This document shows positions 38,007 to 57,147 of a DNA stretch of 64,000 bases, piece by piece. A program made the translations under genes and the position numbers. The notes below the pieces were generated by a model, which was not told the DNA's origin, did no database searches, and was given only the letters and a program-made list of their open reading frames with translations. Each line of letters opens with the position of its first letter. Position 1 is the first letter of the stretch. Origin of the DNA: Humibacillus xanthopallidus (GTDB lineage: Bacteria; Actinomycetota; Actinomycetes; Actinomycetales; Dermatophilaceae); NCBI RefSeq assembly GCF_006716675.1, contig NZ_VFPM01000001.1:372001-436000 (forward strand), read 5' to 3'.

Positions 38007-39002
38007 GTGCCCACAGATGCCCTCGTCATCGCCCCTGCGATCCTCGCCGTCGTGCTCGTCGTCAGCGCGGTGGGCAAGCTCCGGTCGCCGGCCGCGTCGG
38101 CCCAGGCCTTCACCGCCCTGAAGGTGCCGCGCCCGCTCGCGTCACCGCTGGTCGTGAGAGCCCTGCCCTGGGTGGAGATCGTGCTGGGGCTGGTCCTCAT
38201 CGTCGTGGGCGGGTGGTTGGGCGTCGTCGTCTCGCTCGCCGTGCTCGCGCTCTTCGGCGCCTACTTCGCGCTCGTCGTGCGAGCCCGCGGCTTCGAGACC
38301 GACGTCGACTGCGCGTGCTTCGGCAGCCTGGGACCGGGACGGATCACGAGGGTCACGGTGTGGCGCAACACCTGGCTGCTCGCCCTGGCGGTCGTCTCGG
38401 TTCTCGTAGCAACGACGGGCGAGGCCCTGCTCGCTCGGATCATCGACGGGACGGCGCCCTGGCCGTGGCTCCTCGCGGCGGCTGCGGCCGCACTGACCGT
38501 CCTGCTGGTTCTCGGCACCGAATCCTCGCCCGCGTCGGATGCTCCGACCGCCGTCGTTGGCGACCTCGCCGTCGAGGAGGGTGACTACCTGCGTGTGCGC
38601 ACGCCAGCCCTGCCCGTCATGCTCGGTGACGGGACCACGACCCACCTCCGACGTCTGAGCGAGCAGCGCCCGCAGCTGCTGCTCTACGTCTCGCAGTCGT
38701 GCGGAAGCTGCGCCGAGGTGATCGACGCGGTGCCCGGGTGGCGTGGCGAGCTACCGATGCTCGACGTCCGCCTCGTCCTGCGCCAAGCACCAGAGTCGAC
38801 CACGTTGACATCGACAGCAGAGCCGCTGACGCTCCACGACACGGACGGCCTGCTCGCCGAGACCTTCGAGATGCGGGGGACCCCGAGCGCGCTGCTGCTT
38901 GGTGCCGACGGCCTGCTGGCGGGTGGGCCCACGGTGAGCACCCCGGCGGTCATGGAGTTCGTCGGAGACATCAAGGCAGAGCTGGCCAGCATCGAGGTCT
39001 GA
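38007..39002 (+). CDS. MauE-like membrane protein fused to thioredoxin-like domain
   Basis: A 331-residue fusion. Residues 1-170 form a four-helix DoxX/MauE-type membrane domain with the DCACFG motif (C102, C104) matching the CGCFG of methylamine-utilisation MauE. Residues 190-331 form a thioredoxin-like domain with an SQSCGSCAEV redox site (C232, C235), comparable to MauD. In methylamine users MauE and MauD help form disulfides in the Tat-exported, cysteine-rich MauA. Here the neighbouring convergent gene encodes a Tat-exported cysteine-rich protein, so a disulfide-making partner role is a reasonable inference. No methylamine dehydrogenase gene is present. Confidence 0.82.
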   Translation: MPTDALVIAPAILAVVLVVSAVGKLRSPAASAQAFTALKVPRPLASPLVVRALPWVEIVLGLVLIVVGGWLGVVVSLAVLALFGAYFALVVRARGFETDVDCACFGSLGPGRITRVTVWRNTWLLALAVVSVLVATTGEALLARIIDGTAPWPWLLAAAAAALTVLLVLGTESSPASDAPTAVVGDLAVEEGDYLRVRTPALPVMLGDGTTTHLRRLSEQRPQLLLYVSQSCGSCAEVIDAVPGWRGELPMLDVRLVLRQAPESTTLTSTAEPLTLHDTDGLLAETFEMRGTPSALLLGADGLLAGGPTVSTPAVMEFVGDIKAELASIEV

Positions 39003-39087: not shown

Positions 39088-39126
39088 GAGAGGCCCCGGC
39101 CCCCCAGTGGGGGGCCGGGGCCTCTC
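39088..39126. terminator. Bidirectional terminator hairpin
   Basis: Perfect 18-bp arms, GAGAGGCCCCGGCCCCCC (39088-39105) and its complement (39109-39126), around the 3-base loop AGT. It lies between the MauE fusion (plus) and the Tat cysteine-rich protein gene (minus) and can work in both directions. It is the most stable hairpin I found in the window. Confidence 0.88.
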
Positions 39127-39154: not shown

Positions 39155-39775
39155 TCACGGGCCGGCGCAGGCTGCGCTGAGGGTGGGTGCAGGCACCGCG
39201 CCCTGGATGTTGCAGGAGCCGCCGCCGCCGGTCGCCGGCGGGGTGGAGAGGCTGCCGCTCGAGATCGACACCGGAGTCGGGTCGATGGCGGTGCAGGTGC
39301 TGCACTCGTAGCGCTGGTAGTCCAGGCTGAACGAGGTGTTCTGGCTGTTCTGCTGGCTGTTGGTGTAGACGAAGATGCGCTGCGTAGCCCCATCAGGCGT
39401 GCAGAAGGTGTTGCAGGTGGTCGACCCGGGAGGCGTGCAGGTGCCACAGGTGCAGGTGCTACCTGAGTACACGACGACCTGGTAGCCGGTGACCGGCACA
39501 TTGTTGATCCGGACGTTGGTGATGACCGTGACGCCGGTGACCGGGTTGGGGCCGGGTGCGTTGTAAGCCGAGAGCTCGAAGACGTAGCCCTTGAAGATGT
39601 CGTTGGCGTTTCCGGGGAGCTTGCAGGCACCTCCGGTGAACGTCAGCGGACCCTGCGAGGCGGCGACGGTCGGAGCAGCAGCGGCGACCGCGACGGCCGG
39701 CACGGCCCAGGCAGCGCCCTTCACGACCGAGCGACGGCTCGGAGACGTCGGAGTGACGCCGTGGTTGTGCGACAT
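39155..39775 (-). CDS. Tat-exported cysteine-rich protein of unknown function
   Basis: A 206-residue protein that I do not recognise. The N-terminus carries a twin-arginine signal (SRRSVVKG, Arg 14-15, then an Ala/Val-rich helix, likely cleaved near residue 40). The mature part has ten cysteines (51, 108, 110, 113, 121, 125, 158, 161, 188, 203), clustered as TCTCGTC and ECSTC, in an otherwise Ser/Thr/Asn/Gly-rich beta-type sequence. Tat export implies folding, or cofactor or disulfide formation, before secretion. The start ATG has GGGGGA 8 bases upstream. It faces the MauE-thioredoxin fusion and lies just past the PqqD/HprK-like operon end. Confidence 0.75.
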   Translation of the reverse strand: MSHNHGVTPTSPSRRSVVKGAAWAVPAVAVAAAAPTVAASQGPLTFTGGACKLPGNANDIFKGYVFELSAYNAPGPNPVTGVTVITNVRINNVPVTGYQVVVYSGSTCTCGTCTPPGSTTCNTFCTPDGATQRIFVYTNSQQNSQNTSFSLDYQRYECSTCTAIDPTPVSISSGSLSTPPATGGGGSCNIQGAVPAPTLSAACAGP

Positions 39776-39819
39776 GGATGAATCCCCCACTCGAAGACTG
39801 AACCCCCAAGAACGGAGAC

Positions 39820-39825
39820 AACATA
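39820..39825 (-). promoter_or_regulatory. Possible -10 (TATGTT) of the Tat cysteine-rich protein gene
   Basis: TATGTT lies about 45 bases before the start codon on the minus strand, leaving room for a normal leader with GGGGGA. No good -35 is visible. Confidence 0.3.
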
Positions 39826-39906
39826 CCGCACGGCCAAGGGGGCTCGGGACCTGAATCCACCCCTCGATCACGCCCGTTAATGTCACGATTGCGTCACATC
39901 AGGCGC

Positions 39907-40206
39907 TCAGGCGACGCTCAGGAGCCCTGCGTCGACCAGTCCCTTGACCGCTGCCTGCACCGCCCGCGAGAGGTCGCCGTCGGGCGGCGGACCGAGCCGC
40001 TCGAGCATCGCGGCCTCGAGTGCGCCGAGCGTCGTGCCCCCGTCGACGGCCGCGAGCACCTCCACCCCGAGGCCCGACAGGCGCACGATCCGGTGGGCAG
40101 CACCCGACTCCACCATGACGACGGTCCCGCCCTCTGTCTCGAGCCGGTCGACGACGGGCAGGACGGACAGGGCGGTCGTGGGCAGCCAGACGGCGTCGTC
40201 GCTCAT
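39907..40206 (-). CDS. PqqD-like peptide chaperone (first copy)
   Basis: A 99-residue protein with the PqqD layout: a short beta part (LETEGGTVVMVESGAAHRIVRLSGLGVEVL) then a winged-helix part ending in KGLVDAGLLSV. PqqD-family proteins bind and present precursor peptides to modifying enzymes. It is the last gene of a seven-gene operon; its ATG overlaps the stop of the HprK-like gene. The pairing matches, from memory, the HPr-rel-A system known from exosortase-carrying bacteria. The peptide partner is not obvious. Confidence 0.75.
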   Translation of the reverse strand: MSDDAVWLPTTALSVLPVVDRLETEGGTVVMVESGAAHRIVRLSGLGVEVLAAVDGGTTLGALEAAMLERLGPPPDGDLSRAVQAAVKGLVDAGLLSVA

Positions 40207-40985
40207 CGGACCGCCGCCAGCACGTCGCTCACGAGGGGGTCGAGATCGGCGGCGTCGTGGTAGCGCACGACCCGGAGACCGCCGATCGTGTGCAGCAGGT
40301 CGGACAGCGCGTGGAGCGGCCGGTCGAGCCGGGCCAAGGACGAGGTCTCGGGGCCAAGCATGACGAGGGCGTCGAGCGGGTCGACCTCCTCGACCTCGAC
40401 GGGCTCGCCGGGCTCGAGGTCACGCCGCAGAACCACGACCCCGGCGAGCCACGGCGTCACGCGCGGCAGCTCGAGACCGAGCGCGAGGGGCGACGTCTCG
40501 TCCTTGGGGCCCCCGCTCGGTCTGCGCACCGACAGCGGCTTGCTGTAGGTCTCGATGACGCGGTCGGCCCGCACCCCCACCGTCTCGTCGGTCACGTAGC
40601 CGCGACCGGGACCGAGGGTCCGCACGAGCGTCGTCTTGCCGGTGCCCCCCGGAGCGACGAAGGCGAGCGTGGCACCGGATGCCTGGTCGCTCAGCGCTCC
40701 GGCGTGGAACATGAACAGCTCCCCCGCGCGGGCCTGGATCGCCGCCCGCGTCACCTCCTGGGTGATGTGGCTCAAGGTGGACGCGAGCTCGTCGGTGGTG
40801 CGGTCGGCTCCCTCGCCGGACGGCCCCGGGGTGCGCACCCGCGGGCCGTCGTCGGCCGGCTCGCAGAGCACCGCCTCCCAGGCCCGCTCGAGCGGCGCGA
40901 CGAGGGCCTCGTCGGCCGCGTCGATGGCCACCGTGGTGCCGAGCGCCCGCACGTGCAGGACCGACCCGATGCTGTCGGCGCTCAT
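40203..40985 (-). CDS. HprK-like P-loop kinase
   Basis: A 260-residue protein related to the C-terminal domain of HPr kinase/phosphorylase. It has an FMFHAGAL strand, a P-loop APGGTGKTT (about 111-119) and YVTDETV with the acidic pair (D133, E134) that binds metal. There is no HPr-type substrate nearby, and the family tag of HprK-related kinases in polysaccharide/exosortase loci fits better than sugar regulation. ATGA overlaps join it to the glycosyltransferase before and the PqqD-like gene after it. Its phosphoryl acceptor is unknown. Confidence 0.75.
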   Translation of the reverse strand: MSADSIGSVLHVRALGTTVAIDAADEALVAPLERAWEAVLCEPADDGPRVRTPGPSGEGADRTTDELASTLSHITQEVTRAAIQARAGELFMFHAGALSDQASGATLAFVAPGGTGKTTLVRTLGPGRGYVTDETVGVRADRVIETYSKPLSVRRPSGGPKDETSPLALGLELPRVTPWLAGVVVLRRDLEPGEPVEVEEVDPLDALVMLGPETSSLARLDRPLHALSDLLHTIGGLRVVRYHDAADLDPLVSDVLAAVR

Positions 40986-42136
40986 GCCGAGCCCCGGGCG
41001 CCCAGCCCTGCGAGCACCGTCGCCATCTGGCCGACGCGTCGTGACCAGTCGATGGAGGCCAGTCGCTCGGGGTCGACGCGACGGGCTGCGAGAGCGCCCG
41101 ATGACCCTTCTGCGTCGAGGACGCGCGTCACGGCTGAGACGAAGCCGTCGGCATTTGCCACCGTCACGAGCTCGTCGTCCACGTCGCGGAAGCCCGCGAC
41201 CGGCGTCGAGACGACCGGCCGGCCCGCCGCCTGGTACTCGTAGAGCTTGATCGGGTCGAGGCTGTCGGTGAAGGGCGTGACGACGTGCGGCACGAGGAGC
41301 ACATCGGCGTGCTGGAGGTGGGCGGGCACCTCGCCGCTAGGTCGCGCCCCGAGGAGCACGACTCCGGCGTCCTCGAGCACGGATCGCTGGGCGGCCTCGA
41401 GTGCGTCGGGTCCGAGCAGCACGAGGTGCGCTCGGCCCTCCAGGGCGAGAGCGACCCGGGCGCACAGCGCAACGTCGAGGCGGTCGCCGTGGAGCGTGCC
41501 GGCATACAGCACGACGGGACCGCCGGGCAGGCCGGCGGGACGCTCGTGCGCCACCGCGTAGGCCGCCGCATCGACGCCGTTCGGGATGAGGTGGACGACA
41601 CGGCCCTCACCCTTGCTCGCAGCCAGAGCCGGGGAGCAGACGACCACCTCGTCACAGCGCGACAGCAGCACCGACTCCTGCGCCCGGATGCGAGCCGTCT
41701 CGGCGGGCGGGCGGTCGGCCAGGGTCCAGTCGTCGGTGATGTCGTAGAGCGAGCGCCACGTCGTCGCCTCGACCAGCAGCGCCCCGCGGGGGTCGTTGAC
41801 CCAGAGCGCCGGGTCGCCCATGCCGAGCCCCCGCGCGGCCCGCACGACCTGCCGCGCCCACCGCTCGTCGACCGACCGGTCGACGCGGCGCGGGAGCCAC
41901 TTCGTCGGCTCGAGGAGCCACAGCGACCCCGCGCGTATGCCGTCCGCCTCGTGGGCGCGTAGCCCGCGGCCGCGTCGTGGCCGGCCGCCGCCCAGTCCGG
42001 CATGGAGGGGATCGGTCGCCGGCTCGACGAAGAGCACCCGCAGGGCGGGGTCGCGTCGGAGCAGGCCGGCCACGAGGTGCTGGTTGCGTCGCCACACGGT
42101 GTCCCAGGCCTCGAGCGACGTCACGACGAGGTCCAC
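40982..42136 (-). CDS. Glycosyltransferase, GT-B fold
   Basis: A 384-residue transferase resembling the family-4/family-1 enzymes of capsule and teichuronic-type pathways. The N-terminal domain has SLEAWDTVWRRNQHLVAGL; the C-terminal has VLYAGTLHGDRLDVAL, HADVLLVPHVVTPFTDSLDPIKLYEYQAAGRPVV, typical for enzymes with a D-P-x-K-x-x-E donor-site motif. The GTG start is placed directly after the preceding stop (TGAGTG), with GAGG 8 bases upstream. The acceptor is unknown. Confidence 0.85.
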   Translation of the reverse strand: MDLVVTSLEAWDTVWRRNQHLVAGLLRRDPALRVLFVEPATDPLHAGLGGGRPRRGRGLRAHEADGIRAGSLWLLEPTKWLPRRVDRSVDERWARQVVRAARGLGMGDPALWVNDPRGALLVEATTWRSLYDITDDWTLADRPPAETARIRAQESVLLSRCDEVVVCSPALAASKGEGRVVHLIPNGVDAAAYAVAHERPAGLPGGPVVLYAGTLHGDRLDVALCARVALALEGRAHLVLLGPDALEAAQRSVLEDAGVVLLGARPSGEVPAHLQHADVLLVPHVVTPFTDSLDPIKLYEYQAAGRPVVSTPVAGFRDVDDELVTVANADGFVSAVTRVLDAEGSSGALAARRVDPERLASIDWSRRVGQMATVLAGLGARGSA

Positions 42137-43156
42137 TCAGATCACCTCGCGATAGACGGCCGCGGTCTCGAGCGCCTGGTGCTCCGGGGTGAACCGCTCG
42201 CGCTGTGCTCGCTGGAGCGCGGCGCCGTAGGCATCCCGTGCGGCGGGGTCGCGAGCGAGCTCGGCGAGCAGCGAACCGGCGGCGTCGGCGTCACCGGCGG
42301 GATGCAGCGCCGCGCCCGGCACGCTGCCGACGGTCTCGAGGTGGCCCCCCGCAGCCACGGCGACGACGGGCAGCGCCTCGGCCATCGCCTCCAGCACGGT
42401 GAGGCCGAGCCCCTCGACCCGGCACGGGGCCAGCAGGACCGAGGCGCGCCGCATCAGCTGCGTCACGTCGCCGCGGTGCCCGAGGAAGTCGGTGGAGGGT
42501 GCGATGCCGAGCCGGCCCGCCAGGGCCTCGAGGCGCTCCCGCTCGGCTCCGCCCCCCGCGAGCTCGAGGCGCCAGCCTCGCCCGGCCAGTCCCGACCGGG
42601 CGAAGGCCGTCATCGCGACCTCCGTCTCCTTCTCCGCCTCGAGGCGCTGGGCGACGAGGACGACCGGGCGCCGCTCCGACGCGGGGATCGTCGAGGCGGT
42701 CGACAGGACGCCGGGGTGGATGACCGTGCTGACTCCCCCGATGCTCCGCGCGACGTAGTCACTGATCGCCATCTGAGCCGAGACCCGGGTGGCGGCTGCA
42801 GTGGCTGCGAGAGTCGACGCCGGGTTGCTGCCGCGCACTCTCGCGAAGTGCCGGGTGACGACGAGCGGCGTCGATGAGCCGAGCAGCGCTGTGGCGCAAG
42901 CGATCTCGGCAGCAGTCATGTGGGCGTGGACGATGTCGGCGCCGCGCTGCCAGTGGCGCACCGCTCGCACCACCTCGGCGACGGTTCGGGCGGGCACGAG
43001 ACGGGCAGCGCCCTCGACGGCGGCGGCCATCCGGTCCGGGTCGCCGCCGATGACGACGACCTCGTCGCCGGCGGCCACCTGCGCGCACGCGAGCCGTGCC
43101 ACGTGGCTCTCGACTCCGGCGAAGGCGTCCGAGCGCACGGCGTGCAGGACCCTCAC
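42137..43156 (-). CDS. Family-4-type glycosyltransferase
   Basis: A 339-residue GT-B-fold enzyme. The N-terminus reads LHAVRSDAFAGVESHVARLA with the glycine loop for acceptor binding. The C-terminal half has VVLVAQRLEAEKETEVAM and APCRVEGLGLTVLEAMAEALPVV, which contains the E-x7-E donor motif. The GTG at 43156 overlaps the previous stop (GTGA). It is part of the seven-gene chain 47749-39907. Confidence 0.87.
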   Translation of the reverse strand: MRVLHAVRSDAFAGVESHVARLACAQVAAGDEVVVIGGDPDRMAAAVEGAARLVPARTVAEVVRAVRHWQRGADIVHAHMTAAEIACATALLGSSTPLVVTRHFARVRGSNPASTLAATAAATRVSAQMAISDYVARSIGGVSTVIHPGVLSTASTIPASERRPVVLVAQRLEAEKETEVAMTAFARSGLAGRGWRLELAGGGAERERLEALAGRLGIAPSTDFLGHRGDVTQLMRRASVLLAPCRVEGLGLTVLEAMAEALPVVAVAAGGHLETVGSVPGAALHPAGDADAAGSLLAELARDPAARDAYGAALQRAQRERFTPEHQALETAAVYREVI

Positions 43157-44373
43157 GGACGGCCCCCGTTCGACACCGGGCGGGTCGCAGCGATCGGGTC
43201 CGCGCCAGGCGGCTCGCCGAGCAGGTCGTCTCCGCGCGCGTCGGCGAGCGGGTCGATGCCGCGCACGGTGCGCAGCAGGTCGAGGTAGCGCCGGGCCACC
43301 CTCGACCACGAGTGCTGCTCGGCTGCGGCCCGGGCGTGACGCGAGAGCTCTGCGGCATCCCCGTCGAGCACCGCGGCGAGGCCCCGTGCGACGGCGTCGG
43401 GAGTGGCGTCGACGACCGCGCCGTTGACCCCGTCGACCACGAGGTCCGGCACGCAGCCTGTCGGAGTCGCGACCACGGGCACGCCCGTCGCGAGCGCCTC
43501 GAGGACGACGAGACCGAAGGACTCGTAGGCGCTCGGCATCACGAGCACGTCGGCAGCGCGCAACCACGGCCGCGGGTCGGCGTGCGGACCGTCGAAGTGC
43601 ACCCGCTCCCCGAGCCCGGCCGCGGCGGCCGAGGACGAGGCCTGCGCGACGAGGTCGGGGGTCCCGCCGACGACGTGGAGGTGGGTGCGGTCATCGAGTC
43701 TCGCCATCGCCTCGAGGAGCAACGGCAGGCCCTTGCGACCGAACTCGTTGCCGATGAAGAGCACGACGCGGTCGTCGGGCGTGCGACCGAGGGCGGCCCG
43801 CGCGTCCGCCCGCTCCGTGTCGCTCGGGGGGCGGAAGCGCTCGATGTCGACCCCGTTGCCGATGACGACCGTCGGGATCGCGAGCCGCGGGTAGCTCTGG
43901 CGCAGCAGAGCCTCCTCGGCGCTGACGAGGTTGACGACGACTCGGTGCGACCCGCGCCGGGAGTAGCGGAGACGGTCACGGGTCGTGGTGAAGAGGTGGA
44001 GCGGGTTGCGCAGCATCCGCAGCCGGTAGTGCCCCCGGGCGCGCATCGCAGCCTGGACGATGCCGTGGTTGACGTAGACGTCACCGGCCACCACGTCGTT
44101 GTGGCAGACCGAGAGCTCCTCGGGGTGGGCGCGCAGGTAGGCGCGGGCGCGACGCGTGCCGACGGTCGAGAACCAGACGACCCGGGTGATGAGCGCCAGC
44201 CGGCCTCGCACCCCGCCGCCGGGCTGGGGCAGCCAGTCGCCGCCGGCCTCGCTCAGGGAGAAGCGCCGGACGTCGATGCCGAGCCGGGTCCACTCCTGCT
44301 CGAGGTGGTGGGCGACGGCACCGACCCCCGTGCCGGGGCCGATCTCGGGGGTGATCTGCACGATCACGGTCAT
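43153..44373 (-). CDS. Family-4-type glycosyltransferase
   Basis: A 406-residue transferase. The N-terminal domain begins ITPEIGPGTGVGAVAHHLEQEW. The C-terminal half shows VLFIGNEFGRKGLPLLLEAMA, the donor motif PSAYESFGLVVLEALATGVPVV, and a 40-residue tail beyond the fold. ATGA joins it to the polymerase gene before it, and GTGA to the next transferase. Sugar specificity cannot be read from the sequence. Confidence 0.88.
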   Translation of the reverse strand: MTVIVQITPEIGPGTGVGAVAHHLEQEWTRLGIDVRRFSLSEAGGDWLPQPGGGVRGRLALITRVVWFSTVGTRRARAYLRAHPEELSVCHNDVVAGDVYVNHGIVQAAMRARGHYRLRMLRNPLHLFTTTRDRLRYSRRGSHRVVVNLVSAEEALLRQSYPRLAIPTVVIGNGVDIERFRPPSDTERADARAALGRTPDDRVVLFIGNEFGRKGLPLLLEAMARLDDRTHLHVVGGTPDLVAQASSSAAAAGLGERVHFDGPHADPRPWLRAADVLVMPSAYESFGLVVLEALATGVPVVATPTGCVPDLVVDGVNGAVVDATPDAVARGLAAVLDGDAAELSRHARAAAEQHSWSRVARRYLDLLRTVRGIDPLADARGDDLLGEPPGADPIAATRPVSNGGRP

Positions 44374-45719
44374 CGGGCGACCAACGGCTTGGCGGCTCCG
44401 GTGGCCTCGGCCGCGGCGTGGGAGTCAGCGCTCTGCTCGGCATGACGTTGCGCGCCCAGGCAGAGACCGAGCACGACGAAGGGCAGCGAGGACTGCACCG
44501 CCGCCCAGTAGAGGTCGAACTGGCCCTGGACGAGCCGCGAGACGAGGACGGCCACCGCGAGGGAGCCGTAGACCGGGTCGAGGCGCCACGACACCCGCAG
44601 CGCCACGACCATGAGCACGACGAAGCCCAGCAGCCCCAGCACACCAGCCGACGTCAGCACCTCGATCTCGGCGTTGGGGGGCTGGAACTGGAAGGGGAAG
44701 CGGTCGGTGTACCACCACCGCAGGCCCACGCCGAACCACGGGTCCGTGCTCCACACCGTGAGCGAGTCCTGGAACCACGAGAGCCGCTGGAGTGCGGAGT
44801 TGAACTGGTTGTCGGACTGGAGCTGGTCCTGCACGAGGTTGGTGACACCGACGAGGATCGGCGCGAGGAGCAGCAGGAGGAGCTTGGAGCGTTTGCGGTC
44901 GGTGTTGGACCGGAGCACGAGCACGAAGACAGCACCGATGAGGCCGATGAGGGCCTGACGCGACTGGGTGAAGAGGACCGCCGCCACCATGAGGGTCATG
45001 AGGACGATCGACAGGGGCTTCGAGAGGCCCGCCCACCGCGGGCGGGCGTAGACCATCGCCGCCCCCAGACCGCAGAGGGTGCCGGCGAAGTTCTTGTGCA
45101 TGGGGAACGGGATGCTGGGATAGACGGGTGAGAAGTCGCCCTGCGCGAAGTGCATCAGTCCCTCGAAGACCGTGACGACCGCGAGAGCGGCGATCGTGAA
45201 GACGAGCAGGCGCACCCCCAGCCGTCCGTAGCCGTTCGCGCCGACCGCCCACCCGACGAGCAGTCCCCCGGCCACCATCATCCACGCGTGGGCCCACTCG
45301 ACGGCGTTGGCGGCATACGGGTTGTTGACGACGGCCATGAGGGTCGTGAACTGGTAGAAGGCGGAGGCCCAGAGGACGGCGCGCAGCCCGGGTGCGAAGG
45401 GTCGCCGTGCCATGAAGAGCGCCGGGATGGTCGCCGCGGCGAGCACGAAGTCCGAGAGGGACAGGTCGACCCCGCCGCCGCCGACGCGGAGCACGACGAG
45501 CAGCAGGGGCAGGCACACGAGGGGGATCAACCCCGGCTGCAGGGCCGTGACGCCCATGGCCAGCACGGCCGCGGAGATGACGACCGCAGCCTCCGGCGTC
45601 GTCACCGCGAGGCGCGCCACGACAAGCGCGAGCACCACGCCGCCTGCGACGAAGAGGGCCTGCAGGGCGCGCTCTCGCGTCATTGCGCTCTGGAGGCGCT
45701 CGCGCACCCGCACACTCAT
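44370..45719 (-). CDS. O-antigen polymerase/ligase-like (Wzy) membrane protein
   Basis: A 449-residue protein with about eleven hydrophobic segments. A large extracytoplasmic loop near residues 300-355 includes SWFQDSLTVWSTDPWFGVGLRWW and QPPNAEIEVLTSAGVLGLLGF, matching the Wzy_C/O-antigen-ligase signature (a G-x-G loop then an H/N-x-x-x-x-E-x-G helix). It probably polymerises lipid-linked repeat units outside the membrane. It lies between two glycosyltransferase genes with ATGA overlaps on both sides. Confidence 0.88.
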   Translation of the reverse strand: MSVRVRERLQSAMTRERALQALFVAGGVVLALVVARLAVTTPEAAVVISAAVLAMGVTALQPGLIPLVCLPLLLVVLRVGGGGVDLSLSDFVLAAATIPALFMARRPFAPGLRAVLWASAFYQFTTLMAVVNNPYAANAVEWAHAWMMVAGGLLVGWAVGANGYGRLGVRLLVFTIAALAVVTVFEGLMHFAQGDFSPVYPSIPFPMHKNFAGTLCGLGAAMVYARPRWAGLSKPLSIVLMTLMVAAVLFTQSRQALIGLIGAVFVLVLRSNTDRKRSKLLLLLLAPILVGVTNLVQDQLQSDNQFNSALQRLSWFQDSLTVWSTDPWFGVGLRWWYTDRFPFQFQPPNAEIEVLTSAGVLGLLGFVVLMVVALRVSWRLDPVYGSLAVAVLVSRLVQGQFDLYWAAVQSSLPFVVLGLCLGAQRHAEQSADSHAAAEATGAAKPLVAR

Positions 45720-47749
45720 GACGCCTCCGTCGGGGCCGGCACGGTCCGGGCGTCTGCGGGGCGGCTCTCGTGCCGCGCCGGGCCCCGCAGGTAGAGCAGC
45801 GCGCGCTCGCGCGCGGCCCGCCGTCCGTCGCCGCGGAGCAGCGCCGCGCGCACGACCGAGCCGGCGACGTTGCCCGCGCGGCTCACCTGCCACCCGAGCG
45901 CGCCGTAGTGCTTGCGGAGGTAGATCTCGTGGGCGGCGAGGAAGTGCCCCTCGCGCCGGGACTCGTCGGTGCTCGTCGCGGCGCCCTCGTGCTCGACGTT
46001 GACCTCGTCGACGACCCGGTGCCGCCACCCGAGGCGCGTCGCCCGGTAGGCCCAGTCGGTCTCCTCCGAGTAGAGGAAGAAGCGCTCGTCGTCGAAGGGC
46101 CCGACCTGCTCGAGCGCCTCCTGCCGGAGCAGCAGCACCGACCCGATGACGTAGGAGCTGCGCCGCAGCCTGCCGAGCCCGGCGGCGTCGACCCACGTGC
46201 CAAGCGGCGTCGGGAAGGGCCACGCGACCCGGGAGGGCCGCCCGGTGGCGTCGAACTGTGCGGGACCCACGGTTGCCAGCGTGCCGTCGGCGGCGAGCGC
46301 GGCGCGAAGCGTCTCGATGGCTGGCCGGTCGATGACCGCGTCGGGGTTGACGAGCAGCACATCGGCGCGCGGGTCGGCGCGGCGAAGCCCCTCGTTGACT
46401 CCAGCGGCGAATCCGCCATTGCGCCCCGGGTCGACGTAGCGGGCCCGCGTCCGCTCCACGACGGCGCGCACCTCGGGCGAGGAGGAGTTGTCGACGACCG
46501 TGACGGAGAGCCCGTCGAGCGGTGCGAGGGCGCGGGCGAGCAGCGCCGGCTGGCCGTATGCGACGACGACCACGTCGAGGGGACGCTCCGCGATCGACGC
46601 GCTGCCGCCTGTGGTCTCGGTGATGCGATCGTGCGCCGCGAGCCGGTAGAGCCGTTCGTATGCCGTCGCGACCTCGTCCCACGAGCTCGCCTGGGCTCGG
46701 CGCAGCCCGTCCGCCACGAGCCGCGAGCGCACGACCGCATCGCTCGTGACCTGCTGGAGCGCCTTGGCCAGTGCCGCCGGGTCGCCCTCCGGCACCACGA
46801 GGGCGGCACCGTCGACGGCGCCCGGGAGCGCACCGCTGTCGCTGACGACGACCGGAGTGCCGCAGGCCATCGCCTCGAGGGCCACACGGCCGAACTGCTC
46901 GACCCAGCTCGCCGTCGTCAGGGACGGCACGGCCAGGGCGTCCAGGGACCGGTAGAAGTCGGGGAGCGCCTCGGCCGCGAGCGGGCCCACGAACTCGACC
47001 CGGTCGGCGATCCCCAGCTGGTCGGCGAGCGCCTCGAGCGACTCCCGCTCCGGACCGTCGCCCGCGACCCGGACGCGAACGGTCGCCTCGAGGGCGGCAG
47101 CCCGCACCAGGACGTCCACGCCCTTCGCCGGGTCGAGCCGGCCGGCATACCCCACCAGCGGTGCATCGGCCTGCCCGGAGCGTTCGGCCGCCCCGCCGGC
47201 GCGGCGGTCGGCCGCACCGGCGGGGGTGAAGACGGAGAGGTCGGTGCCGAGGTCGATCGTGCGTGCCCGGCCCGGGAAGCCCTTGCGCTCGGCGATGCGC
47301 GCTGCCGCGGCGTTGCAGGCGCTGACGCCGCGTGCCCCCCGCAGGGCGGCCCGCTCGACCCAGCGGAAGGGCACCGGGTAGCGCTTGTCGAGGTTCTGCG
47401 CCGTGTAGAGCACGTAGGGAGCACGCTGCCGGCGTAGCCAGCGCAGCAGGAGGACCTCGGCTGTCGCGAGCGCGAAGGGCTCCTCGTGGACGTCGATGAC
47501 GTCGAGGGGCTCGCCCAGCGCCGCCCACAGCGGCCTCGGGTCGTAGACGAAGAGCGCCGGGTGGTGACCGAGGGTCGGGGCCGCGACGACGGCCTCCCCG
47601 GGGCGTGGCACGAGGGGCACCTCGCGGCCGCCCTCCTGCCACCGGGCGGCGGAGACGACGGTGACGTCGTGGCCCCGGCGGCGCAGCGCACGCTCGCGCT
47701 CGCGCCACGAGTCGACGACGGCGCTGTGGGACACGCGAAGCACCCGCAT
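45716..47749 (-). CDS. Fused glycosyltransferase: GT4 plus GT2 domains
   Basis: A 677-residue bifunctional protein. Residues 1-390 are a GT-B family-4 domain (LVGYAGRLDPAKGVDVLV; SWVEQFGRVALEAMACGTPVV). Residues 400-677 are a GT-A family-2 domain: LDVVVVAYGQPALLARAL, VDNSSSPEV, the rhamnosyl-type GGFAAGVNEGL, LLVNPDA as DxD equivalent, then FFLYSEETDWAYRATRLGW. Two successive linkages may therefore be made by one chain. The ATG at 47749 begins directly before the first strand. It opens the operon running to 39907 and is divergent from the chain-length regulator. Confidence 0.9.
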   Translation of the reverse strand: MRVLRVSHSAVVDSWRERERALRRRGHDVTVVSAARWQEGGREVPLVPRPGEAVVAAPTLGHHPALFVYDPRPLWAALGEPLDVIDVHEEPFALATAEVLLLRWLRRQRAPYVLYTAQNLDKRYPVPFRWVERAALRGARGVSACNAAAARIAERKGFPGRARTIDLGTDLSVFTPAGAADRRAGGAAERSGQADAPLVGYAGRLDPAKGVDVLVRAAALEATVRVRVAGDGPERESLEALADQLGIADRVEFVGPLAAEALPDFYRSLDALAVPSLTTASWVEQFGRVALEAMACGTPVVVSDSGALPGAVDGAALVVPEGDPAALAKALQQVTSDAVVRSRLVADGLRRAQASSWDEVATAYERLYRLAAHDRITETTGGSASIAERPLDVVVVAYGQPALLARALAPLDGLSVTVVDNSSSPEVRAVVERTRARYVDPGRNGGFAAGVNEGLRRADPRADVLLVNPDAVIDRPAIETLRAALAADGTLATVGPAQFDATGRPSRVAWPFPTPLGTWVDAAGLGRLRRSSYVIGSVLLLRQEALEQVGPFDDERFFLYSEETDWAYRATRLGWRHRVVDEVNVEHEGAATSTDESRREGHFLAAHEIYLRKHYGALGWQVSRAGNVAGSVVRAALLRGDGRRAARERALLYLRGPARHESRPADARTVPAPTEAS

Positions 47750-47891: not shown

Positions 47892-49313
47892 GTGACGTTC
47901 CGGGAGTTCCTCAACGTTCTGGTGGCGCGTTGGCGGATCATCGCACTGACACTTCTCACGGTGATCGCGGCAACGGCTGTCCAGACGATGCTGACGCCTG
48001 CCCTCTACACGGCGAGCGCGAAGATCTACCTCTCCGCCACCCAGCCGGCCAACGCCAACGGCCAGAAGGTCGGCGCCTACGCGATCGGCGCCAACGACCT
48101 CGCGACCTACGTCGACGTCCTCAACGCACCCTCCGTCCTCGGGCCGCTGCGCCAGACGTTGGGCCTGGCTCCCAACGCGCCGGTCTCGGTGACGGCAGAC
48201 GTCTCGCAGACCTCCAACATGATGACGATCACCGCGACCGACGGTGATCCGGAGACGGCCGCGCGCATCGCCAACGCGGCCGGGCCCATCCTCGCCGGGG
48301 TCGCGACGGAGAAGTTCGCGCCGCTGCTGGCCGCCAACGGCCAGGCCGTCCAGTCCCAGACCGTCGCGGAGGCCGGGGTGCCCGGCGCACCGTCGTCGCC
48401 CAACGCCAAGCGCAACCTCATGCTCGGTGCCCTGCTCGGCCTCGCCCTCGGCATCGGGCTCGCGCTGCTCGCGCACTCGCTCGACACCAAGGTCCGCAAC
48501 GAGGACGACATCAAGGCCCTCTCGAAGCGGCCCATCCTCGGCGACATCCCCATCGTCAAGTCCGCCCGCGACGGCCTGCTCAGCATCGAGAGCGACCCCC
48601 ACGGGCGCCATGCCGAGGCGATCCGGCGCCTGCGCACCAACATGCTCTTCGTCGACGTGACGACCGGCGGGCACTCCTTCGTTGTCACCTCGTCGGTGCC
48701 CGGTGAGGGTAAGACGACGACGACGATCAACCTCGCCATGGCCATGGCCGACGCCGGCTCCAAGGTGCTGCTCATCGACGGCGACCTGCGCAACCCGTCC
48801 GTCGCCTCGACGATGGGCCTCGACGGCTCCTTCGGGCTGACGACCCTCCTCCTCGGGCAGGCCGACCCCGGCGACGTCATCCAGCGCTGGCGCGAGAGCA
48901 CCCTGCACGTGCTGCCGGCCGGGCCGGTGCCGCCGAACCCCTCCGAGCTGCTCGGGTCCGAGCCCATGGAGACGCTCTTCGGCAAGCTCTCGCACGACTT
49001 CGACTTCATCCTCGTCGACAGCCCCCCGGTGGTGCCCGTCATCGACGCGGTGCTCATCAACAAGCTGACGCACGGGCTCATCATGGTCGTGGCCGCCGAC
49101 CGCACCCGCAAGCGCGACCTGGCGAGCGCCGTCCACTCGCTCGAGACGGTCGACGCGCCGGTCGCCGGCTTCGCCCTCAACATGGCGCCCGCCACCTCGA
49201 CCGCACACCGCTACGGCTACTACGGCCAGAACCGCGCGGTGGGCATGAAGCTCTCCCGGAGCGAGCGCAGGTCGCGCGAGCAGCGCGCCCGCAGGGCTCA
49301 CAGCCAGGCCTGA
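47892..49313 (+). CDS. Polysaccharide chain-length regulator fused to bacterial tyrosine kinase (Wzz/BY-kinase)
   Basis: A 473-residue membrane protein controlling polymer length and export. The Wzz domain has two helices (about 14-34 and 176-194) around an extracytoplasmic part. The cytosolic kinase has SSVPGEGKTTTT (Walker A, K274), VLLIDGDLRNPS (Walker A'), FILVDSPP (Walker B), and a C-terminal tyrosine cluster YGYYG (441-445) for autophosphorylation. The GTG start has GGGGGC directly upstream. The gene is divergent from the seven-gene glycosyltransferase operon and thus likely co-controlled with it. Confidence 0.93.
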   Translation: MTFREFLNVLVARWRIIALTLLTVIAATAVQTMLTPALYTASAKIYLSATQPANANGQKVGAYAIGANDLATYVDVLNAPSVLGPLRQTLGLAPNAPVSVTADVSQTSNMMTITATDGDPETAARIANAAGPILAGVATEKFAPLLAANGQAVQSQTVAEAGVPGAPSSPNAKRNLMLGALLGLALGIGLALLAHSLDTKVRNEDDIKALSKRPILGDIPIVKSARDGLLSIESDPHGRHAEAIRRLRTNMLFVDVTTGGHSFVVTSSVPGEGKTTTTINLAMAMADAGSKVLLIDGDLRNPSVASTMGLDGSFGLTTLLLGQADPGDVIQRWRESTLHVLPAGPVPPNPSELLGSEPMETLFGKLSHDFDFILVDSPPVVPVIDAVLINKLTHGLIMVVAADRTRKRDLASAVHSLETVDAPVAGFALNMAPATSTAHRYGYYGQNRAVGMKLSRSERRSREQRARRAHSQA

Positions 49314-49361: not shown

Positions 49362-49649
49362 TCAGGTCGCTCGGACCGCGTCGGCCTCGTCGAGCAGTCC
49401 GTCGCCGCACAGCGAGTGCACGAAGGCGAGAGCGTCGGCGGCGATGCCCGACGCGGGCACGTCGAAGGCATCTGCCACCCGGTCGATCCACCCGTCGGCG
49501 GGGCCCTCGGTCGCCTCGGCCCAGATGACGGCTCCCGCTCCGTCGAGCACGAGGATCGGTCCCGCCGGAAGTCGTGCCACATAGACGGTCGCGCCGTCGC
49601 GGCTCACCGTCACCCCGACGTCGGCCGCGGGACGGAAGGCCGGCGTCAC
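49362..49649 (-). CDS. PqqD-like peptide chaperone (second copy)
   Basis: A 95-residue protein with the same layout as the copy at 39907-40206: a beta part containing YVARLPAGPILVLDGAGAVIW and a helical part ending FVHSLCGDGLLDEADAV. Sequence similarity between the two copies is limited to the fold pattern, so they probably serve different partners. The GTG overlaps the nucleotidyltransferase stop (GTGA), a direct translational link. It is convergent with the Wzz/kinase gene. Confidence 0.72.
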   Translation of the reverse strand: MTPAFRPAADVGVTVSRDGATVYVARLPAGPILVLDGAGAVIWAEATEGPADGWIDRVADAFDVPASGIAADALAFVHSLCGDGLLDEADAVRAT

Positions 49650-50548
49650 CGGTTCCTCCCCTGCCGCGCCGACCGCAGCCGTGCGAGCTGCTCGCGCGCA
49701 CCGCGCAGCGGGCGGTCGAAGAACTCGGCGATCACCTCGCGTCGCGAGACCGGCCGTCCCCGCACGATGGTGAGGTGCTCGACGTTGACGAGGACCGAGC
49801 GTCCGGCGACGTGCGCTTTGGCGCGCAGGCCCCGCGCGGCCCGCACCCGAGCCCGCCACTCCTCCATCCGCGTGCCCCCGCGGGCCGCGACGCGCCACAG
49901 GTCGTATGCCGGGTCGTCGCGGTGCTCGTCGAGCTCGCCGAGGATGACAGAGAAGCCCAGACGGGCGTCGAGCCGGTCGACCCAGTCGAGCACCTGCTGA
50001 CGCTCGTCGTCGGTGGCCCGGTGCCAGAGGTAGTCGACGTCACGGGCCGCCTTGGGGTCCGCGCCCCCGCGCGCCGCGTGGAGCAGGAGCAGGGCCGCCT
50101 GGGCCCCCCGGGCGGGCACGGCACAGCTGCGTCCCCCGAGCGTCGTCGTGCGCCGCTCGGACCAGAGCGTCGCGAAGGCCGCCTCGGGCGTCGGACCCGC
50201 TCCGGGATAGAGGCGGTGCAGGTCGAGCAGCCCGAAGTCGTGGTGTCGCAGCGTCGCCGAGTGCTCGAACGAGGAGCCGTAGGCGAAGGAGTTGATCAGC
50301 TCCCACCCGTGCTGGCGCAGCTCGGCAAGCACCCGGGCCACATGAGCCGGCCGCACGAGCACGTCGGCGTCGGAGAACCCCCGGTCCGGCACGAGCGTGG
50401 GGTCGAGGGCGGCACCCTTGACGTGGAGGAGGTCGGCGCCGCACCGGTCGGCGATCCACTGCACGGAGGCGTGAGCGAAGCCGATCCGCACCTCCAGAGG
50501 CACCGTCGCCCCCGCCGCGGGGACCTCGGCGACCTCACGGGCTGCCAT
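49646..50548 (-). CDS. Nucleotidyltransferase-fold protein (uncharacterised NTP_transf_5 type)
   Basis: A 300-residue protein with a nucleotidyltransferase core: LLHVKGAALDPTL followed by DRGFSDADVLV, which supplies the metal-binding acidic pair, then SATLRHHDFGLLDLHRLY. The C-terminal 130 residues are helical and basic. Such proteins accompany PqqD and HprK-related proteins in polysaccharide loci in my memory of exosortase systems; the reaction is unknown. I chose ATG 50548, with GGGGG 8 bases upstream, over earlier in-frame starts. It is divergent from the PAP2 gene. Confidence 0.7.
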   Translation of the reverse strand: MAAREVAEVPAAGATVPLEVRIGFAHASVQWIADRCGADLLHVKGAALDPTLVPDRGFSDADVLVRPAHVARVLAELRQHGWELINSFAYGSSFEHSATLRHHDFGLLDLHRLYPGAGPTPEAAFATLWSERRTTTLGGRSCAVPARGAQAALLLLHAARGGADPKAARDVDYLWHRATDDERQQVLDWVDRLDARLGFSVILGELDEHRDDPAYDLWRVAARGGTRMEEWRARVRAARGLRAKAHVAGRSVLVNVEHLTIVRGRPVSRREVIAEFFDRPLRGAREQLARLRSARQGRNR

Positions 50549-54593: not shown

Positions 54594-56203
54594 GCGGCGA
54601 CCCGGCCGGTGATGAGCCGGACCACGATGCCGCCGACGGGCCGGACGGGTGCCGGCAGTCCGCGCGACAGCACCTCGGCGTCCGTCGGGGTGAGGCCGCT
54701 GCGCAGGAGGCGCACGCCACCGAGGTAGGCCGCGGTGCCCAGCAGCCCGAGGGCGATCGCGCGCACGAGGGGTGGCACCCCCACACCTTCGCTGGCGAAG
54801 AAGGCGACGGCCGCCACGACGCTGCCGTGCAGCACCGGCACCGTGTCGGTGAGCAGGTCCACCACCCGGAGCCCGAGCTGGCGCAGCTCGAGGCGCAGGA
54901 GGATGGACAGCGTCGTCAGGGCGCCTGCCGCGTTGGCGATCACCGCGCCCCACACGCCGATCGACGGGATGAGCGCGAAGGCCAGACCGAGGTCGAGGGC
55001 GAGCGCGACGAGGTTCGCCTTGAGGATGGAGCCTCCGGACAGGCGCGAGGTGACGAAGGCATAGACGGGGTTGAAGCAGGTGACGAGGCCCGCCGAGATG
55101 CTGAGGGCCACGACGACGGGCGCGGCCTGCGCGAACTCTGCCCCGTAGAGGCTCGGCACGAGCGCGGCGAGCGGGGCGATCACGCCGGCGCACAGGAGCC
55201 CGACGACCGTGCTCCCGACTCGCATGACCCGGCGAAAGGCCGGCTGCACCGCAGCGCTGTCGACCTCGCGCAGCCCCGAGATCGCCGGGATGAGCGGGCC
55301 GAGGAAGGCCTGCGCCGGCGCGAAGACGTGGCTCGACAGGCCGAAGGCGAGCGCGAAGATGCCGACTGCCGCCGGTGTCGCGATCGCGTTCATCACGAAG
55401 ATCTCGCTGCGCGAGGTGACGAGGCCCCCCACGACGCCCGAGGCGCCCATGAGCACGGCGAAGCGCAGGAAGCCCGGCGGCAGCTGCCGGGGCAGCGTCG
55501 GCCGCAGCACGGCGCGGCGGTACGCCTTGGAGATCGGGATGAGGCACATCGCGATCGCGACGCCCGAGACGATGAGCCTCGTGAACCACACCGCCTCGGG
55601 GGTGCCCACGAGCAGGAGCACCGCGACGACGGCGGCCTGGGTGACGAGCGAGGTGATGAGGGTGATCTTGGCGCCCGCGGCGGTCTTGTTCTCGATGCCG
55701 AGGCAGGCGGCCGCACCGTCGAGCGTCGAGGGCAGCACGACGCCGAAGACGACGGCGACGGCGATGGCCGCCGGGGAGACGTCGGTGGCGAAGACGACGA
55801 CGAGCGAGAGGATCGGCATCGCGAAGAGCACGCGGAAGCCCTGCCACTTCGACAGGAGCGCGGCCACCTCCTGGGTGCGCCCGGCCGCGTGGGCCTTGGA
55901 CCCGAACTGCATGACGGCAGCCCCGAAGCCCGACGCGAGCAGGCCCGAGACGAACTCCATGAGCGCCGTGAGGAAGGCGAGACGCCCGTAGTCGGCCGCA
56001 CCGAGCACCCGGGCGATGAGCAGGTTGACGACGAAGGCGACCGGGATGGCGATGACGGTGTGGATCATCGTCCACGTCACCCCGCGCACGGCCCGCTCCT
56101 GCAGCGCGCCGCGGTTGAGGGCCTCCTCCGTGGGCTGGCCGAGCACGGCCGCCGGGCCGAGCTCGTCGGGGTCTTGGGGCGGCATACCGTCGGGGGTGGT
56201 CAC
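54590..56203 (-). CDS. Wzx-like polysaccharide flippase
   Basis: Moves lipid-linked repeat units across the membrane. The 537-residue protein has about fourteen hydrophobic segments in the MATE/MOP arrangement: the first helix region RGVTWTMIHTVIAIPVAFVVNLLIARVLGAADYG is characteristic of polysaccharide flippases, and a second-half repeat begins around IFALAFGLSS. It starts with a GTG inside the preceding stop (GTGA), with ATG seven codons later as an alternative. It and Wzy/Wzz complete the Wzy-dependent pathway. Confidence 0.9.
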   Translation of the reverse strand: MTTPDGMPPQDPDELGPAAVLGQPTEEALNRGALQERAVRGVTWTMIHTVIAIPVAFVVNLLIARVLGAADYGRLAFLTALMEFVSGLLASGFGAAVMQFGSKAHAAGRTQEVAALLSKWQGFRVLFAMPILSLVVVFATDVSPAAIAVAVVFGVVLPSTLDGAAACLGIENKTAAGAKITLITSLVTQAAVVAVLLLVGTPEAVWFTRLIVSGVAIAMCLIPISKAYRRAVLRPTLPRQLPPGFLRFAVLMGASGVVGGLVTSRSEIFVMNAIATPAAVGIFALAFGLSSHVFAPAQAFLGPLIPAISGLREVDSAAVQPAFRRVMRVGSTVVGLLCAGVIAPLAALVPSLYGAEFAQAAPVVVALSISAGLVTCFNPVYAFVTSRLSGGSILKANLVALALDLGLAFALIPSIGVWGAVIANAAGALTTLSILLRLELRQLGLRVVDLLTDTVPVLHGSVVAAVAFFASEGVGVPPLVRAIALGLLGTAAYLGGVRLLRSGLTPTDAEVLSRGLPAPVRPVGGIVVRLITGRVAA

Positions 56204-57147
56204 GCCGCCCCGCTCAGCTGGTCGAGCCGCTCGAGCACGGCGGGGTCGGCGAAGTCCTCGACCTTGCGGCCGAACGGCGAGCCGGAGGCCTCGATGTCGT
56301 GCAGCTGCTCCTGCCACGACAGCACCCGGTCCTCGGGCAGCCGGTGGCTCACGGTGCGGGCGGAGACCGGTGCGCGGTGCCGGGCGAGGACGGTCTGCAG
56401 GGCGCTCTCGTCGGGGATGATCGTGTGGCGGTAGACCCGCTCGAGCGGGGCACCGGGTGCCAGCTCGGTGAGCACCTGGTCGAGGCCGGTGCGGTCGAGG
56501 GCCACCCACTGCGACCCGAGCTGGCACGGCGTGCCAGTGGTGAAGGGGTTGCGCACCCGACGCACCCCGACGTGGGCGCCGGGCCCCCGCTCGACGAGCC
56601 GCACCGAGACGAGTGGCTCGGTGCGGTGAGCGACCGCCCAGACCAGCCGGGCGAGCCGACCCTTGCGACGGAGGGTGGCATCGAGCAGCGGCGCGCGCCA
56701 CCAGCGGTAGGCGTAGCGCGTCATCGTCTGGTCGCCGGTGCCGTCGGCCCCGCCCCAGCGCGGGCGGTAGGTGACGGGGCGCACCTGCCCCTGCCATCCG
56801 CCGGCGGCGACGAGCTCGCGCTCCCACGCGGCGAGGTCGACGGCCGGGTGGCACTGCCCCGACACGAGCACGACGAGGTCGGGGTCGACCGCCTCGCGGG
56901 CGCGGCGGAAGCCCCCGAGCGTCGCCTCGACGAGCTCCCAGGAGCCCCAGTCGGTCGCCAGCCCGTGGGTCCACACCTGCACCCGCTCGTCGTCGAACCG
57001 CGGCGCCGGCGTGGCCCGCGCGTCGTGGGCGACGAGCACGAAGCTGTGCGGGCTCGACCTGCGGATCGCGCCGACGAGGTGCGCCAGCCGGTCGGCCGAC
57101 GCGTGCGAGAGCACGACGTATGCCGCGGTGACCGGCGGCGCGGTCAC
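56200..57147 (-). CDS. Core-2/I-branching-type (GT14-like) glycosyltransferase
   Basis: A 315-residue protein resembling bacterial relatives of beta-1,6-N-acetylglucosaminyltransferases: AAYVVLSHASADRLAHLVGAI at the start, VLVSGQCHPAVDL in place of the L-S-G-x-D-Y motif, GSQWVALDRTGLDQVL and HTIIPDESALQTVL near the end. These are the landmarks of the Branch domain, which does not need a DxD motif. The specific linkage is unknown. GTGA overlaps join it to the family-2 gene before and the flippase gene after. Confidence 0.78.
   Translation of the reverse strand: MTAPPVTAAYVVLSHASADRLAHLVGAIRRSSPHSFVLVAHDARATPAPRFDDERVQVWTHGLATDWGSWELVEATLGGFRRAREAVDPDLVVLVSGQCHPAVDLAAWERELVAAGGWQGQVRPVTYRPRWGGADGTGDQTMTRYAYRWWRAPLLDATLRRKGRLARLVWAVAHRTEPLVSVRLVERGPGAHVGVRRVRNPFTTGTPCQLGSQWVALDRTGLDQVLTELAPGAPLERVYRHTIIPDESALQTVLARHRAPVSARTVSHRLPEDRVLSWQEQLHDIEASGSPFGRKVEDFADPAVLERLDQLSGAA

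Follow-up and report, generated by a model that had tools for sequence, protein, structure and literature searches.

A candidate Tat-linked system for protein modification and folding in polysaccharide clusters of Humibacillus xanthopallidus and its relatives

In the lpp cluster of Paenibacillus alginolyticus the LPP precursors carry the consensus leader YxxPxVLxHQxIxFETxxS, and the kinase LppK phosphorylates a serine at the third position of the core (PMC13381572). LPP precursors can reach about 200 residues, and the leader motif published for the RREs of lasso and LPP peptides is [Y/W]xxPx[L/V/I/F/A] (PMC13381572). Lasso peptides of the paeninodin and pseudomycoidin type likewise depend on a PqqD-like RRE, an HprK-like kinase that acts on a serine and a nucleotidyltransferase that adds a hexose to the phosphate (PMC8498205). 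A different combination is found among the Streptomyces candidate RiPPs of decRiPPter, where a MauE homologue is encoded beside a product with at least eight cysteines; the part of the account that deals with it reports no other mau genes, and it cites MauE, in methylamine utilisation, as a presumed aid to the formation of disulfides in a cysteine-rich protein that is exported (PMC7794033). The idea followed here has precedents in both the MauE homologues with cysteine-rich precursors of decRiPPter and the RRE, HprK-like kinase and NTP transferase of LPP clusters.

We analysed a window of 64,000 nucleotides (the whole stretch of DNA under study, to which all coordinates refer unless stated otherwise) from the 5.27-Mb genome of H. 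xanthopallidus. The original prediction had proposed that a MauE-thioredoxin fusion (MauE-Trx), a Tat-exported ten-cysteine protein, a PqqD-like protein and an HprK-like protein form one maturation and export system. All of the genes that it named were found again where it had placed them. A second PqqD-like protein (RRE-2), an NTP_transf_5 protein, an inverted repeat and a WxxP motif in the Tat signal were absent from it. The locus is laid out as follows.

38007 to 39002, plus strand: MauE-thioredoxin fusion (w28), a redox membrane protein with CxC and CxxC (PF07291, E=1.1e-19, Pfam search; predicted thioredoxin fold)
39089 to 39125: perfect inverted repeat between convergent genes, terminator-like on both strands (fold -53.3 kcal/mol, z -6.7)
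39155 to 39775, minus strand: Tat-exported ten-cysteine cargo protein (w29), predicted Ig-like beta sandwich
39656 to 39709, minus strand: proposed leader tag within the Tat signal, W23-A-V-P26-A-V28-...-S40 (spacing in 28/28 signals; published RRE motif)
39907 to 40206, minus strand: PqqD-like RRE-1 (w30), overlapping the kinase gene (PF05402 above cut-off)
40203 to 40985, minus strand: HprK-like kinase (w31; P-loop; homologue in locus L108 compared with TIGR04352)
40982 to 47749, minus strand: glycosyltransferases and O-antigen ligase (w32-w36), contiguous with the kinase gene (Pfam GT1/GT4/GT2, Wzy_C)
47892 to 49313, plus strand: Wzz / AAA_31 chain-length and tyrosine-kinase-like protein (w37; Pfam; a recurrent HprK neighbour)
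49362 to 49649, minus strand: second PqqD-like protein, RRE-2 (w38; PF05402, E=1.4e-6)
49646 to 50548, minus strand: NTP_transf_5 nucleotidyltransferase (w39), overlapping RRE-2 (assigned by its match to PF14907, E=2.3e-12)

The genes for the cargo, the PqqD-like and the HprK-like protein are co-directional and lie downstream of five glycosyltransferase and ligase genes. Between 47749 and 39907, neighbouring genes overlap, touch or leave gaps of no more than about 15 bp. The inverted repeat, with arms of 17 bp, separates the MauE-Trx gene from the convergent cargo gene. RRE-2 and the NTP_transf_5 protein belong to the same polysaccharide cluster as the four genes of the original prediction. 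As had been stated, there are no methylamine dehydrogenase subunits nearby, the neighbours being TrpS, exonuclease III and polysaccharide genes. Further along the window (56200-57147), a Core-2/I-branching glycosyltransferase (Branch, PF02485) is encoded in an actinobacterial polysaccharide cluster.

The fusion has 331 residues, with a MauE domain that contains DCACFG followed by a domain with CGSC, and its only four cysteines are those of the CxC and CxxC. A thioredoxin fold is predicted for the C-terminal domain (AlphaFold pLDDT 84), which gives VIA Z values of 13-15 against peroxiredoxins, ResA and DsbF of M. tuberculosis. In methylamine utilisation MauD is the thioredoxin-like partner of MauE; the H. 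xanthopallidus protein likewise joins a MauE membrane domain to a thioredoxin-like part, but here both are fused in one chain and the exported protein beside them is not MauA.

The PqqD-like RRE-1 scores 25.4 bits against PF05402 (cut-off 23.4). A PDB profile search gave no significant match of RRE-1 to solved RREs, the best being PbaB1 (9x90) at a non-significant E=0.15. The best PDB matches of the RRE-2 family profile are TbiB1 (5v1u, E=5e-6) and LppB (9x8z, E=7e-4), and when RRE-2 is aligned by eye to LppB, the Asp and one Phe described as leader contacts of LppB are kept. The HprK-like protein contains the P-loop that had been reported for it, with the sequence GGTGKTT, and this loop is conserved. 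It reached no family at cut-off (TIGR04352, E=0.11), and its L108 homologue matches TIGR04352 with E=3.6e-7, also under the cut-off of that family. For the two members of the HPr-rel-A system (TIGR04352/TIGR04353) the values in the window, E=0.11 and 0.074, are far below the curated cut-offs. Kinase and PqqD domain form one chain beside a Tat cargo in five loci (L107, L108, L116, L117 and L118). That the PqqD-like protein may serve the kinase as a chaperone, as originally suggested, fits published RRE/HprK pathways by analogy, and the WxxPx[VIL] of the Tat signal provides a proposed docking motif for this role. H. xanthopallidus also has a second HprK-PqqD-NTase locus (L132, G039:C1:2183001-2203000), in another polysaccharide cluster and with no Tat gene nearby. 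Elsewhere (L105:8398-12619 and L106), MauE-Trx, HprK and PqqD genes directly adjoin that of an MMPL-family transporter, again with no Tat gene nearby.

The locus resembles LPP clusters in having a discrete RRE, together with a putative HprK-like kinase and a candidate counterpart of their uncharacterised NTP transferase, within a capsule or glycosyltransferase locus, precursors of up to about 200 residues, a leader motif of the form [Y/W]xxPx[V/L] and a serine near the end of the leader, at 18 residues from Y to S in LPP and 17 from W to S here (PMC13381572). RRE-2 is, by profile, of the LPP/lasso type (LppB, TbiB1). However, of the full LPP consensus YxxPxVLxHQxIxFETxxS only the [Y/W]xxPx[V/I/L] part and a similarly spaced serine are found; the proposed leader is a Tat signal, the cargos are folded proteins, several of them unlinked in one genome, MauE-Trx is an added partner, and the hosts are Actinobacteria. 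A PqqD-like RRE, an HprK-like kinase and a nucleotidyltransferase are also the kinds of protein used in the paeninodin/pseudomycoidin pathways, where the kinase targets the C-terminal serine, in contrast to the site proposed here (PMC8498205). Among the Pfam-scanned genes of 37-63 kb we found no archaeal-type SipW-like signal peptidase, no MsbA-like exporter, no macrolactam synthetase (C) and no B2 protease. Because the peptidase, exporter, cyclase and B2 protease are missing from the locus, we do not file it as a member of either pathway. From the decRiPPter candidates it differs in its RRE/HprK pair and Tat signal motif, features that the family descriptions, as far as that account covers them, do not include (PMC7794033). 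A literature search of limited coverage found no link of Tat with an RRE, and only incidental matches for PqqD with twin-arginine.

Since LPP and paeninodin-like clusters are built around an RRE, an HprK-like kinase and an NTP transferase, the three proteins could act on a separate, unannotated small RiPP precursor of LPP or lasso type, leaving the Tat cargo to use MauE-Trx only. In the gaps of 37.9-53.5 kb, however, a single short frame carries the leader motif, and it resembles a frame that is open by chance in GC-rich DNA; the search for a hidden precursor gave no convincing candidate. Lasso cyclase, B2 protease, SipW-like peptidase and ABC exporter are all wanting among the scanned genes, and in many genera Tat genes, eight of them for cysteine-free proteins, directly adjoin the RRE/HprK genes. 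We regard a separate small precursor as distinctly improbable.

The Tat signals of the cargos conform to the consensus RR[ST]..KGAAW..P.[VIL]...[S/T]. In a set chosen by RR, W, P and an uncharged hydrophobic stretch, the W, the P at +3 and a V, I or L at +5 are invariant in 28/28 non-redundant signals; because the selection had demanded RR, W and P, only [VIL], the Ser/Thr and the spacing count as independent findings. At +17 from the W all 28 have a hydroxyl residue (Ser in 26, Thr in 2), with zero insertions or deletions. Conservation ends beyond this residue, and the cargos have little else in common. Two signals depart from the pattern: one beside an HprK gene (L241) has Glu at the position of the serine, and the WxxP Tat signal of genome G621, which has no HprK match, has Gln. 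As for how often Ser falls at +1 in ordinary signals, the control set was too small and included membrane helices. Conservation of the motif alone is no proof of RRE binding, and the WxxP signals may share common ancestry as a module.

To place the genes in context, we retrieved loci from across the family and annotated them by gene calling and profile searches. Homologues of MauE-Trx with at least 47% identity have a Tat gene within 1.5 kb at 12/12 intact loci, 88-201 bp away. The order MauE-Trx, convergent Tat cargo, PqqD, HprK and glycosyltransferases is kept in Humibacillus, Terrabacter, Terracoccus, Intrasporangium, Ornithinibacter and Tetrasphaera. In G015 (L103), a single cluster carries the Tat/MauE-Trx pair at one end and the HprK/PqqD/NTase set at the other. 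The set is not always complete: genus g18 has Tat, HprK, PqqD, RRE-2 and NTase genes with MauE-Trx not nearby, genera g33 and g42 combine HprK and PqqD with cysteine-free Tat cargos in genomes without MauE-Trx, genus g47 has MauE-Trx, HprK and PqqD with the Tat gene not nearby, and the Tat gene is not nearby at some other HprK loci as well. More distant MauE-Trx proteins (26-34% identity) have unrelated Tat cargos 35-225 bp away at seven loci (L119-L122, L148, L182 and L183), one of which, L121, also has HprK and PqqD. At L229, which comes from another family of the order, about 8 kb hold Wzz, PqqD, HprK, a Tat cargo, MauE-Trx and NTase.

When 150 genomes of the family were searched with the cargo, MauE-Trx, HprK and RRE-2, a signal of the cargo type was found in 68, two of which hold remnants. 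With related genomes taken as partly independent, HprK is present in 66/66 genomes with the intact signal type versus 22/84 without it, and RRE-2 in 56/66 versus 9/84. Counted by genus, HprK accompanies the signal in 30/30 and occurs in 4/23 without it. Shuffling within genera left all tested pairs significant (permutation p at the floor of 5e-5), and when only the signal was searched for, as a pattern in the DNA, 19/60 genomes were positive, HprK being present in 19/19. In the control, generic Tat signals (TIGR01409) were found in 57/88 genomes with HprK and 35/62 without (p=0.31). Genomes of genus g12 have HprK with no Tat cargo detected. At the level of the class genuine signals were scarce, and HprK was present in 4/5 genomes that had one; the exception, G621, is also without MauE-Trx.

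The link between the signal and MauE-Trx is also strong (60/68 genomes with the signal versus 16/82 without), as would be expected if WxxP were a mere structural trait that goes with one subtype of Tat signal, and disulfide maturation by MauE-Trx alone lay behind the association. HprK is nevertheless the better predictor (66/66), and in g33 and g42, whose genomes do not have MauE-Trx, the cysteine-free cargos are encoded next to HprK. We consider this explanation very improbable.

HprK and MauE-Trx are both missing from 2/8 genomes of the Terrabacter group. G148 has no block between flanks that are preserved as far as exonuclease III, and its orphan cargo, which is unlinked, has become a pseudogene in which one Arg and the Trp are missing; G094 retains just a cargo remnant, its signal gone. 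If unlinked cargos depended on the locus in trans, orphans should decay once it is lost, as is seen in these two genomes. According to the original prediction, cargo homologues that occur regularly without the partners would make the proximity accidental. Locally such homologues exist, as orphans far from the locus, but genome-wide the partners are present elsewhere.

The joint loss in G148, and the position of all the genes among glycosyltransferases, Wzz and O-antigen ligase, would also suit accessory genes of one exopolysaccharide cluster that do not act on each other: HprK, PqqD and NTase would serve to regulate the polysaccharide or to decorate it, the Tat protein would be a matrix protein, and MauE-Trx a general redox protein kept nearby. 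Yet the Tat signal type tracks HprK genome-wide even with unlinked, unrelated cargos, ordinary Tat signals do not, unlinked orphans decay after loss of the locus, and the adjacency appears again in another family with a different cargo. A set of independent accessory genes seems to us unlikely, if still worth weighing.

The protein at 39155-39775 (minus strand) has, as predicted, 206 residues, the Tat signal SRRSVVKG and exactly ten cysteines. Its designation as the cargo holds in that it is one cargo; it proved too narrow, as the cargos are diverse, several lack cysteine, and the signal peptide is what they share. The number of cysteines was also discarded as a defining feature, HprK-linked cargos with 0, 2, 4 or 6 having the identical signal type. 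A mature-domain profile run over the order matched few genera (13 candidates scored per genome, with limited sensitivity), consistent with the sequence of the signal, rather than the mature domain, being the common part. The model of the cargo is a generic Ig-like beta sandwich (pLDDT 76) with a best VIA Z of 7.6, to a PCuAC domain; as this is in the range expected with no true relative, we read no function from the fold. A profile of the cargo matched OspA in the PDB at chance level only. Another CKxPG Tat protein (L100:6923-7528) is encoded beyond MauE-Trx, by a gene inserted between trpS and that for exonuclease III, and a 16-cysteine Tat cargo unrelated in sequence to that of the window lies 35 bp from a MauE-Trx gene (L122:9579-10523).

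Tat genes immediately adjoining MauE-Trx, in about ten genera, all encode at least two cysteines, and eight HprK-linked Tat cargos with no MauE-Trx nearby have zero. This distribution fits disulfide handling by MauE-Trx. Given the cysteine-free cargos and the genomes without MauE-Trx, the disulfide part would be optional. Disulfide formation by MauE-Trx is a putative assignment, as is the position of its thioredoxin domain relative to the membrane, and the charge pattern of the protein is compatible with more than one topology. In genus g18, relatives of MauE-Trx (L114:12394-13494 and L124:7425-8480) have kept the CxC of MauE, but their thioredoxin domain no longer has its CxxC.

We conclude that the fusion, the PqqD-like and HprK-like proteins and the tagged Tat cargos function together. 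The support for this is good: the adjacency is conserved, the genes have come together independently in distant genera, and the presence/absence profiles agree with it. The proposal of one system is supported to that extent. In these soil actinobacteria, exported proteins are probably recognised via the common signal-peptide tag and modified. The best reading is a Tat-linked relative of LPP pathways, with the signal peptide as leader and an added disulfide module; for a Tat-linked modification and folding system with all proposed steps together we estimate a probability of roughly 0.55. We infer RRE binding and every enzymatic step, serine phosphorylation included, from sequence and genomic context. 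A PqqD-like RRE would bind the W-x-x-P-x-[V/I/L] of the Tat signal as it would a RiPP leader and deliver the cargo to the HprK-like kinase, which would phosphorylate the Ser/Thr that is conserved at the border of the signal peptide (Ser40 here). Possibly, the NTP_transf_5 enzyme then attaches a sugar-phosphate. The cargo would be exported by Tat, with the signal cleaved beside the serine, and MauE-Trx would form or isomerise disulfides outside in cargos that bear cysteines. A more specific version is offered only tentatively: the Tat signal would be a RiPP-type leader with WxxPx[VIL] in its hydrophobic part, the phosphorylated serine would become the N-terminus, the NTase would link it to a sugar or exopolysaccharide via the phosphate, and several unlinked cargos per genome would be served in trans.

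If this system exists, modification guided by an RRE, which is known from small peptides among the natural products, would reach folded Tat-exported proteins as well, with the export signal as the tag that is recognised. Should it be confirmed, one signal peptide would at the same time serve a pathway of protein modification as its docking leader. Orphan PqqD, HprK-like and NTP_transf_5 genes of actinobacterial polysaccharide clusters would gain a role, the recurring GAAWxxP class of Tat signals an explanation, and MauE-thioredoxin fusions a substrate class. The cargo list of a genome would then be predictable from sequence by the tag.
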